Positions 18,850 to 22,035 of a stretch of DNA of 37,841 nucleotides are shown one piece after another. The translations under genes and the position numbers were made by a program. Numbering within the stretch: position 1 is the first letter of the stretch; each line of letters opens with the position of its first letter. The stretch spans positions 15,702-53,542 of the forward strand of contig NVXP01000008.1 in NCBI GenBank assembly GCA_002733985.1, given 5' to 3'. Below the pieces are notes generated by a model, which saw only the letters and a program-made list of their open reading frames with translations, did not search any database and was not told the DNA's origin. Origin of the DNA: Fluviicola sp. Its GTDB lineage: Bacteria > Bacteroidota > Bacteroidia > Flavobacteriales_D > Crocinitomicaceae.

Positions 18850-19314
18850 TTGAAACAAATTATCCTTTTCCTCATTCTCATTTTAAGCCTTGCAAGTTGC
18901 TCTGGTGGCCTTGAAAACCTTGGCTCCATTTCGATCAAAAATGTGAGCTCTGATACGATTATCTTAAGAGAAACGACAATTGAATTACAAGAAGGTGATG
19001 TTGTTGAATTATGGAATGATATGTCAATTGAAACAAAGCAAAAAGACAAAGTACACGTCTTTTACGGGCTTGAACACTATCTTGAAGGAAAATCCCGTGG
19101 CGGAATGAAACTGGATGCGCTCAAAACGAATCCAACGATACTCGAATCAAAAGAAAGTGCTCGTGGAAGGCTTGTTTGGAGTTTTCAAGGAAAAATGGCG
19201 CATATCGATATTCTTGAATCGGGAAAATACACATTCAAAGCAGCGGTATTTACCTCAGATAAGGAACTAATTTTGAATAGAGCCAGTCTCATTTTTAAAC
19301 GAAGAAACAAGTAA
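18850..19314 (+). CDS. lipoprotein of unknown function (TTG start)
   Basis: 154 residues. A lipoprotein signal peptide with hydrophobic core LFLILILSL and lipobox LASC gives an acylated cysteine at about residue 17. The only start that keeps the complete signal is TTG at 18850, because an in-frame stop lies at 18838-18840 and no ATG occurs between. The mature part is beta-rich with no recognised domain. It begins 13 bases after the CAP gene and is followed 13 bases later by the PrsW gene. Confidence 0.8.
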   Translation: MKQIILFLILILSLASCSGGLENLGSISIKNVSSDTIILRETTIELQEGDVVELWNDMSIETKQKDKVHVFYGLEHYLEGKSRGGMKLDALKTNPTILESKESARGRLVWSFQGKMAHIDILESGKYTFKAAVFTSDKELILNRASLIFKRRNK

Positions 19315-19327
19315 GACCAAATTTCTT

Positions 19328-21400
19328 ATGATCATTACCCTCATCCTCGCCCTATTCCTGCTCGTTGTAGTTTTCTCTAGAACCGCTCGAAAAAGGAAGG
19401 CAAATGAATCTTTCGTGCAACACAACAAGAAGTTCATCATTATTGGGTCAGTTGTGTTGTTAACGATTCTCGTGATGAATGTCTTACGTCCTCGCGTGTA
19501 CCTTACAGATCTTGACGAAATTATTGAGAATGCAGACAAGGACGATGATGAATATCATGCCTTGAAAGGTCGAAAAAAAAGCAGTCAACTCGATCCATTA
19601 AATATTCCAAAGTTATTCGAGTACGTAGAAGATTGCGAAGCGTATGAAACATACGATAAATCATCACTTCAAGACGAAACCTACTCTCAATTACCAGAAA
19701 TGCAACGCTTGGCGCTCGCGTATGTAGACGCCTTATCTTCTGAAACATCCTTTGACTCACTTTATCGAACAGGACCAAATGGCATTTATGACACTAACTA
19801 TCCTGATACAACGCAGGCATTTCATAACTATATAATTGGACAACAAAAACGCAAGGATGGCGATGTATTTGGTTCAATGAAAGCATTTGAACGCGAGACT
19901 AAATTGAATCCCAATTTCGCTAAACCATACTCTCAGCTCTACACCGCCTATTTATTATTCAACAGGGAGAAATTCAAACCTTTCATTGTTAACCCGAACA
20001 ATGCAAAGCATCTCGACCAAAGTCGACTGATCATTGATTACTTCAACATCGGGGAATATGGATTATATTTCAAAACAATTTATGCGCAGAGCTTCTTAGA
20101 GATGAACTTCTTTGCCTTCATCGCAGGTCTAATTATTTCAATCGTTTGGATGGTTTTTCTTCGAAACATGGACTTTTTCAATAAGGAAAGATGGATTGAT
20201 CTGACTCTAGTTTTTCTAGGTGGTGCCGTTTTCACCAATCTCTGCCTCTTTTTATATCATTCAGCATATTACGACTGGGGAATACATTTGAACGGTGAAT
20301 TCTGGAACGACTTCTTCTATTGTGTGGGCGTCATTGGATTTTCCGAAGAACTCGTAAAGTTGATTCCATGGATTCTTTTTGTCGCATTGTCAAAACAACT
20401 GAAAGAGCCGTATGATTACATTTTATATGCTTCAGCAGCGGCACTTGGCTTTGCATTCACTGAAAACCTCACTTATCTCGAGGAACCAGTAAACATTGTT
20501 AGTCGATCGATAATGTCGACAACAATGCACATGTTCACGGCATCTCTTGTGGCTTACTCTATCGTTCTTGCTAAGTACAAATACAAAACTCGACAAGCAA
20601 AAATATTGGCTCCCATAATCGGCTTCATCTTGGCCTGTTTCGCACACGGATTCTATGATTTTTGGCTGGTTAGCGAATCAACGAGTGGATTGGGAATCAT
20701 TACCACTGTGTTCTTTCTGTTTACCATTCATTTTTGGTTTTACATGATTAACAATTCAACCAATCACTCTTCATTTTTCGATAAAAAGCTTTTTCGAATA
20801 AATGAGAACATTGAATTCTTGAGCATTTCAATTCTAGGAATAATTTTACTGCAGTATATCATACTATGTATCGAATATGGAGCAATTTCTGCAAATACGA
20901 TGCTTCAATTTGGAACGACTTTCACCATTGGATTTCTACTTTACGTCACATTCATTCTTTCTAACTTCAAACCAATTCGCGGTAAATGGCAAAAATATGC
21001 CTTCCCATTATCAGGGCTGATTAAAGAATACATCACCATTCCTTTTATTAGCAATTTTCCCACTGAGTCTCATATTGGATTGCACCTACGTATATTCTGT
21101 CCGAGAAACAACAAATACATCGGAGACCAATTTCCCGTAAGCGGTCATTGCGAACGAAAAATCACGGTCAACGGCCAAGAAAATTGGTACTTGTTTCGAT
21201 TAAACAAAGGTTTGACTCTCTCTGGATACAATTCGCACTTGATTGTATTAAAACCGAAATCAAATCGAGAAGCACTAACTGAGGAGAAAATTGAGCTTTA
21301 TTTGATGCTCATTCCCTTAGGCCTTGATGTAAATTCCGATGACATTCCTATTAAGCAATTGAGATACACCGGTAAAACTTACTCAAAACCAATATTGTAA
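19328..21400 (+). CDS. PrsW-type intramembrane metalloprotease/glutamic protease family protein
   Basis: 690 residues. The core carries the PrsW motifs FSEELVK (E340, E341, K344), GFAFTENLTY (E379), MHMFTASL (H401) and AHGFYDFW (H440), within a bundle of membrane helices from about 255 to 545. Two N-terminal hydrophobic segments precede a soluble region (about 55-250) with a TPR-like stretch around QAFHNYIIGQ to KPYSQLYTAY. The C-terminal 140 residues form an unassigned soluble domain. In Bacillus, PrsW performs site-1 cleavage of anti-sigma factor RsiW; the substrate here is unknown. An ECF sigma/anti-sigma pair lies 760 bases downstream. Last gene of the five-gene operon. Confidence 0.88.
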   Translation: MIITLILALFLLVVVFSRTARKRKANESFVQHNKKFIIIGSVVLLTILVMNVLRPRVYLTDLDEIIENADKDDDEYHALKGRKKSSQLDPLNIPKLFEYVEDCEAYETYDKSSLQDETYSQLPEMQRLALAYVDALSSETSFDSLYRTGPNGIYDTNYPDTTQAFHNYIIGQQKRKDGDVFGSMKAFERETKLNPNFAKPYSQLYTAYLLFNREKFKPFIVNPNNAKHLDQSRLIIDYFNIGEYGLYFKTIYAQSFLEMNFFAFIAGLIISIVWMVFLRNMDFFNKERWIDLTLVFLGGAVFTNLCLFLYHSAYYDWGIHLNGEFWNDFFYCVGVIGFSEELVKLIPWILFVALSKQLKEPYDYILYASAAALGFAFTENLTYLEEPVNIVSRSIMSTTMHMFTASLVAYSIVLAKYKYKTRQAKILAPIIGFILACFAHGFYDFWLVSESTSGLGIITTVFFLFTIHFWFYMINNSTNHSSFFDKKLFRINENIEFLSISILGIILLQYIILCIEYGAISANTMLQFGTTFTIGFLLYVTFILSNFKPIRGKWQKYAFPLSGLIKEYITIPFISNFPTESHIGLHLRIFCPRNNKYIGDQFPVSGHCERKITVNGQENWYLFRLNKGLTLSGYNSHLIVLKPKSNREALTEEKIELYLMLIPLGLDVNSDDIPIKQLRYTGKTYSKPIL

Positions 21401-21401
21401 A

Positions 21402-21511
21402 ACAAAAAAGCCCTTTGTTAAACAAAGGGCTCTCTCCTACCACATCTAAACTAAACTATGTTTAGCTTAATGACAAACAATTCACTAAACTCTGCTAAAA
21501 GATGTTTGTCA
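21402..21511 (-). ncRNA. candidate small RNA on the minus strand
   Basis: Reading the minus strand from 21522, a perfect minus-7 element TACTTTTG (21522-21515) would start transcription near 21511. The first base there begins an 8-bp hairpin (TGACAAAC/GTTTGTCA, arms 21511-21504 and 21478-21471). A second hairpin CTAAAC/GTTTAG follows (21465-21451). The end is a strong terminator at 21431-21409 with a T tract. TTC-N19 replaces the usual minus-33 TTG. The order promoter, hairpins, terminator is that of a 110-nt small RNA. An alternative is the 3' part of the rhodanese transcript. Target unknown. Confidence 0.5.
21403..21431 (-). terminator. rho-independent terminator on the minus strand
   Basis: Arms AGCCCTTTG (21409-21417) and CAAAGGGCT (21423-21431) are exact complements with loop TTAAA. 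The A run at 21404-21409 becomes a T tract on the minus strand, while no T tract follows on the plus strand, so it acts mainly for leftward transcription. It may still act weakly for the PrsW gene ending at 21400. Confidence 0.8.
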
Positions 21512-21783
21512 AGACAAAAGTATGGCTAAATATTGGATTGAGAACGTAATACTTTAACCATTCGACAAACGGTAGGCAATATCGGTTTAATGACATGCCT
21601 CCATTTTCAAGGTGCTTATTAGCAGCGAAGTATTGATTCTTTCGTTATAAGAGGGTTTAGCAAACATCTAAGACGTATTGTTTGGTTCTTTTGGGTACAC
21701 AAAGAAGGGCCAAAAAAAAATCACGATAAATTGATTGCACCATCAGATATAACCAATCCACCAAAAACAAATATAAATTTTCT

Positions 21784-22035
21784 TTACCCGTTCATTCGGC
21801 TATTCACTTCTTCCCAGCCACCGCCGTTCTCACATTCGATCCCTTTAGATTTAAAATATTGAGTCGCTTGACCACTTCTACCTCCACTTAAACAACAAAA
21901 TAAAATTGGTTGTTTCATTTCGCGGATTTCGTCTTCTCTATCTACAACTTCGTTCAAAGGAATATTGATCGAACCGGTTACGTTTCCTCCGATAAATTCT
22001 GCTTGTGTGCGTACATCAATAATTGTGTATTCCAT
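21784..22035 (-). CDS. single-domain rhodanese-like protein
   Basis: 83-residue cytosolic rhodanese. IIDVRTQAEF, GSINIPLNE and the active loop CLSGGRS with catalytic C48 (CX4RS) are present, so sulfur transfer is possible; the natural acceptor is unknown. A longer frame starting at 22113 exists, but the ATG at 22035 begins right at the domain, and a perfect minus-7 element at 22059-22052 lies between the two starts, which excludes the longer form. Transcribed divergently from the sigma-factor gene. Confidence 0.88.
   Translation of the reverse strand: MEYTIIDVRTQAEFIGGNVTGSINIPLNEVVDREDEIREMKQPILFCCLSGGRSGQATQYFKSKGIECENGGGWEEVNSRMNG

Follow-up and report, generated by a model that had tools for sequence, protein, structure and literature searches.

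The minus strand of a 37,841-nt stretch of Fluviicola sp. DNA (contig NVXP01000008.1, positions 15,702 to 53,542; hereafter the window) probably carries a new small RNA gene, a candidate designated type A and predicted from sequence. It is likely to be a free-standing small RNA with its own promoter and terminator, which would act in trans through a hairpin loop and without Hfq; its sequence, predicted structure, conservation pattern and promoter and terminator signals were observed, and its expression, exact ends, trans action, targets and partner are inferred. As a candidate gene type A is clean, and by following its loop we arrived at another element, type B, which is present in most of the family genomes searched and has no Rfam match.

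Hfq is often missing in Bacteroidota and, to our knowledge, Bacteroides is among the genera without it. We also know of few small RNAs that have been studied in Bacteroidota outside Bacteroides and Flavobacterium. A search of the literature (titles and abstract openings) on Fluviicola small RNAs and on Crocinitomicaceae sRNA found no such RNA.

Architecture of type A

The features of the region are as follows, with window coordinates, strand and the basis of each assignment.

21515..21522, minus: -7 promoter box TACTTTTG (sequence; counterparts at the same place in relatives)
21404..21510, minus: type A small RNA, about 107 nt, predicted ends (box spacing, end of T tract, start of conservation)
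21472..21510, minus: hairpin 1, 8-bp stem GACAAACA/TGTTTGTC and 23-nt loop (scan, fold, pairing count)
21510-21503 and 21479-21472, minus: stem arms of hairpin 1, GACAAACA and TGTTTGTC, respectively (sequence)
21481..21500, minus: loop motif TTTTAGCAGAGTTTAGTGAA, invariant across four genomes and resembling the type B core (alignment)
21447..21469, minus: hairpin 2 of the AAGCUAAAC/GUUUAGUUU type (predicted fold)
21437..21446, minus: unpaired purine-rich linker 5′ of the terminator (alignment, predicted fold)
21404..21436, minus: intrinsic terminator hairpin and T tract (sequence, fold, scan)
21784..22035, minus: rhodanese-like gene (named in the preliminary description), upstream of type A and on its strand in each of the four genomes
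19328..21400, plus: PrsW-like gene (named in the preliminary description), convergent with type A, not a conserved neighbour

A box of the sigma-A type, TACTTTTG, lies at the expected distance from the predicted 5′ end, with four bases (TCTT on the minus strand) between it and the stem of hairpin 1, which begins with G21510. In Flavobacterium psychrophilum, the TAnnTTTG box spans -12 to -5 (PMC9723704), and the predicted +1 of type A is therefore 21510, one base away from the 5′ end at 21511 that had been proposed before. At this base the stem begins, and so does the conservation between genomes. The stem comprises 8 bp when counted from 21510 and 9 bp when U21511 is included, but C replaces U21511 in one relative. 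No TTTG was found around -33 in the sequence upstream of the box.

At the 3′ end, type A has an intrinsic terminator with the stem AGCCCTTTGTT/AACAAAGGGCT, followed by six T at 21409-21404. A simple terminator scan missed it, apparently since its stem runs into the T tract. The in-register succession of box, 8-bp stem-loop, second hairpin and terminator, which the preliminary description had reported, was borne out by a composite scan whose criteria were chosen after the site was seen (TAnnTTTG, a perfect stem of at least 8 pairs starting 3-7 nt later, and a terminator within 200 nt): type A was the sole match among the 47 TAnnTTTG boxes on both strands of the window, and 60 dinucleotide shuffles of the window gave no match. 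The predicted fold has a z-score of -5.3 (110 nt) or -6.2 (108 nt), with none of 200 shuffles folding as well in either run, and values between -5.2 and -6.2 were obtained for type A of the four genomes that carry it, one sequence being partial.

With regard to coding potential, no conserved protein-coding frame was found in type A, the overlapping frames being 23-33 aa long. One carrier (G010) has a 61-aa frame that starts from TTG and crosses type A; the same frame ends inside hairpin 2 in the window, owing to a 2-nt insertion in G010. Directly before the terminator (21437-21445, minus strand) lies an AUG-UGG-UAG run, AUGUGGUAG (start-Trp-stop), which is kept in all four genomes; it encodes two residues only and is probably incidental.

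No family of Rfam 15 gave a match in the window at its gathering score. The best sub-threshold scores were those of PyrR (24.1 bits against a gathering score of 54), BTnc231 (20.2 against 80.4) and BTnc049 (19.3 against 81.9).

Conservation and distribution of type A

In BLAST searches, type A was found in four of the 34 genomes of its genus, namely the window genome itself (5.09 Mb), G010, G024 and G033. A covariance model (R2) recovered the same four carriers at 80-140 bits, with a shorter piece of G024 at 41 bits, and gave nothing above 36 bits beyond them in the 34 genus and 240 family genomes. Among the best 10 of 30 R2 matches listed, the alignment runs via the terminator and the invariant loop is absent. 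One weak R2 match (30.7 bits; L032:994-1119, minus strand, in G009) has a partly loop-like stretch, UCUUGUAGAAGAGUUU, followed by a terminator, and could be either a chance match or a distant relative. Plasmid and phage collections contained no match to type A at E 1e-5, and viral contigs contained no exact match to the 24-nt loop pattern. Type A may have a single origin in one clade.

The three full copies of type A are identical to one another at 103/106, 102/107 and 99/106 positions, and their hairpin 1 loops are identical throughout (23/23). On the other side of the predicted start, the 32-37 bases upstream of the -7 box show identities of only 12/32 to 17/37, the four-base spacer between box and RNA shows 0/4 to 2/4, and third codon positions of the rhodanese-like gene are 47-58% identical between the four genomes. 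From this contrast with the upstream bases and the rhodanese third positions, it follows that type A is under much tighter constraint than the sequence around it, starting from its predicted first base. The relatives retain the -7 box in the corresponding position (TATTTTTG, TACATTTG and TACTTTAG); in G024, one T of the box is replaced by A.

Pairing in the type A stems is maintained in 99.2% of cells, with one pair broken in G033. Two pairs of hairpin 2 go from A-U to G-U in relatives, and the innermost terminator pair, which lies outside the counted structure, was seen by eye to go from U-A to C-G in G010. The stems hardly vary, and none of the 30 pairs shows a double change. All of these figures rest on four genomes, one of which (G024) has type A split by an assembly break over the ends of two contigs, on which the rhodanese-like gene and prsW are located. 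The two ends (C96 and C59 of G024) overlap by 19 identical bases inside type A. Taken together, the comparative evidence gives good support to a separate gene for the small RNA that was first described as about 110 nt long, at the somewhat shorter predicted length given above.

A second small RNA, type B

The 240 family genomes were searched with a 21-nt loop pattern at up to three mismatches, which gave four perfect and 45 other sites; the reversed control gave 51 sites, so that the number of sites means nothing by itself. Seven intergenic loop matches in three other genera proved to belong to one conserved element, type B. Its parts, in order, are a TAnnTTTG box, a four-base spacer, a predicted 5′ hairpin, the segment GGGUUUUAUAGUUUUAGCAnrGUUUAGY and finally a terminator; the whole is 94-105 nt long. 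With a covariance model of its own (R3, E <= 0.01), type B was detected in 172 of the 240 family genomes, in 19 of 24 genera and in 31 of the 34 genus genomes, and the copy of the window genome lies outside the window, on another contig:

L147:756-857 = G000:C41:46455-46556: type B of the window genome (R3 match)

It was also detected in 154 of 399 genomes drawn from the order, and all matching genomes listed belong to the family. Seven type B loci gave no Rfam match at gathering score, and a loose Rfam search with one locus gave nothing near a gathering score.

The promoter-like box is a regular part of the element. TAnnTTTG occurs 45-59 nt before the motif in all 38 type B copies that have an intact motif and enough upstream sequence, and in 156 of 4000 random 55-mers; these copies come from two sources, the 30 top-scoring loci and nine copies fetched from the genus, the latter being the 12 rows of alignment A8 minus three weak opposite-strand matches. 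The type B terminator shows double changes in 6 pairs (3.5 in shuffles) and 39 cells (13.6 in shuffles), in an alignment that was fitted to the structure and so leans toward covariation.

About 45 nt separate the end of type B in the window genome from a following gene, and the protein encoded there is identical at 122 of 217 positions to its counterpart after type B in G137; in G104 and G055, however, the neighbours of type B differ. In G055 there are two copies about 190 nt apart (L134, 1501-1595 and 1786-1880); the second, whose motif lacks its 3′ half (TTTTAGCAGAATTAAAC), looks like a duplicate that is diverging.

The motif found in both RNAs

The motif UUUUAGCAnnGUUUAG occurs in the loop of type A and in the exposed core of type B. 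Within type B it lies in the most conserved part, TTTTAGCAnnGTTTAG being present in 30 of the 31 rows of alignment A7 and in all nine fetched genus copies, and it is predicted to be mostly exposed in the copy of the window genome. Within type A it lies in the invariant loop, for which the predicted probabilities of being unpaired are mixed (0.27-0.99).

The resemblance may just as well be a coincidence as not, with type A being a clade-specific RNA unrelated to type B; this question bears on the shared-partner half of the favoured explanation only. When all non-terminator parts of type A and of the type B copy of the same genome were compared, their similarity was reached by 102 of 3000 shuffles. 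When the comparison was restricted to the conserved segments, that is, loop against core, 397, 47 and 21 of 20000 dinucleotide shuffles did as well for the copies of the window genome, G033 and G024, respectively. These shuffle figures overstate the case, because type B was itself found via its similarity to type A. A coincidence would also agree with the near-equal numbers of motif and control sites (49 and 51), with the difference in the middle two bases of the motif, and with the lack of any R3 score for type A, which was not matched at E up to 10 (the sole R3 match in the window, at 16.7 bits, lies elsewhere on the plus strand). Against it stand the low counts of the segment-restricted shuffles and the fact that the match joins an invariant loop of one RNA to a conserved, exposed segment of the other.

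The odds of a function common to the two RNAs are even at best. It is a possible but rather doubtful further step that type A and type B are sibling regulators, which carry the same motif on different scaffolds and form an Hfq-free, one-motif network in the family. Given its variable middle bases and its repeats of GUUU(U)AG, the motif seems more likely to be read by a protein than to pair over its full length. Pairing between type A and type B was no better than that of shuffles, 341 of 500 being as low. If the motif is truly common to both, it would offer a direct handle on small RNA action without Hfq in these bacteria.

Possible mode of action

In the favoured explanation, a free-standing RNA acting in trans, type A would be transcribed by the main sigma factor from its TAnnTTTG box, and the transcript would end at its own intrinsic terminator. 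The 23-nt loop of hairpin 1 would be the working part, which may base-pair with target mRNAs or contact an RNA-binding protein, in either case without Hfq. Since 16-20 nt of the loop resemble the exposed core of type B, the targets or the protein partner could perhaps be common to both RNAs, as is the seed of GibS and FopS in Bacteroides.

None of the 34 genus genomes had an Hfq match over the cut-off, and the control search was positive in five of 14 genomes, E. coli and B. subtilis among them. One sub-threshold match lies inside a 334-aa frame of G030. With regard to targets, complements of the loop (16 nt, up to two mismatches) were found at 13 sites in the four genomes, including four self matches, compared with 23 sites for the reversed control, while complements of the linker (17 nt) were found at five sites, again including four self matches, compared with one for the control; overall there was no clear excess. 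The ten non-self sites do not cluster at start codons. In addition, the loop and the linker were each paired with the start regions of 26 ORFs in the window, and none of these 52 tests went beyond the 1% background tail.

Relation to known small RNAs

The closest parallels are found in Bacteroides. According to two reports (PMC7366714, PMC11697453), GibS of Bacteroides thetaiotaomicron (145 nt) represses mRNAs by pairing near their start codons, and the protein RbpB binds the FopS sRNAs, which have one GibS seed in common. In the same reports (PMC7366714, PMC11697453), GibS and FopS are intergenic sRNAs, FopS is transcribed from canonical sigma-ABfr promoters, and GibS ends at an intrinsic terminator and exposes a conserved stretch, all of which type A resembles. 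As described there, however, the seed of GibS is an unstructured 5′ end, whereas the conserved stretch of type A is a 5′ hairpin loop; any target or RbpB-like partner of type A is putative.

Rfp18 of Flavobacterium psychrophilum (PMC9723704) is similar in its strong predicted structure, its conservation outside the species and its predicted stem-loop pairing region. Type A, by comparison, was found in the searches performed in no more than four genomes, all of the same genus. Type B shares with type A the promoter type, a predicted 5′ hairpin, a terminator and the motif UUUUAGCAnnGUUUAG, but it carries the motif between hairpin and terminator and not in a loop, is far more widely distributed, and its model R3 does not place type A in the same family.

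Genomic neighbourhood

Two readings that tie type A to a neighbouring gene were weighed. In the first, type A would be processed from the rhodanese mRNA, of which it would form the structured 3′ untranslated region, and would have no promoter of its own. This possibility, raised as an alternative in the preliminary description, is improbable. It agrees with the position of the rhodanese-like gene, which precedes type A on its strand in every carrier, and with a terminator scan that found none between this gene and type A in the window genome, G024 and G033, where read-through may occur. However, the same scan found a strong terminator in between in G010, and in G033 the two are separated by 1135 nt containing ORFs, compared with 246-278 nt in the other three genomes. 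It is further weakened by the TAnnTTTG-like box, which persists 5 nt ahead of the conserved block although the sequence around it has diverged. The rhodanese-like gene also occurs apart from type A. It was found in 28 of the 34 genus genomes, and the 24 loci lacking type A gave no loop match at up to four mismatches and three weak model matches only (E up to 1). All four carriers have a divergent sigma-factor gene beyond the rhodanese-like gene; this neighbour is kept in G005 and G025, the next genomes by rhodanese identity, as well as in G009, and type A is absent from all three.

In the second reading, which is very improbable, type A would be a cis-acting antisense RNA or a shared terminator for the prsW mRNA: it lies immediately beyond the prsW stop codon in G024 and in the window genome (where the stop ends at 21400 on the plus strand), but it persists in G010, where a 399-aa gene (L003:1796-2995) intervenes and prsW is about 2 kb off, and in G033 (98% complete), where prsW gave no match, while G012 and G009 have prsW-like genes near the rhodanese-like gene without type A, and on the plus strand the hairpin is followed by CTCTCTCC and no T tract. 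The varying neighbour on the terminator side thus speaks against a cis-acting function on prsW, and the action on this mRNA that had been suggested earlier is not supported, the position opposite prsW being conserved in only two of the four carriers.

Two further observations concern G033. One of the ORFs between the rhodanese-like gene and type A (L002:426-788) contains repeated ESRAD-type units, and the gene on the terminator side is a relative of the window gene at 18850-19314, with 85 of 152 positions identical.
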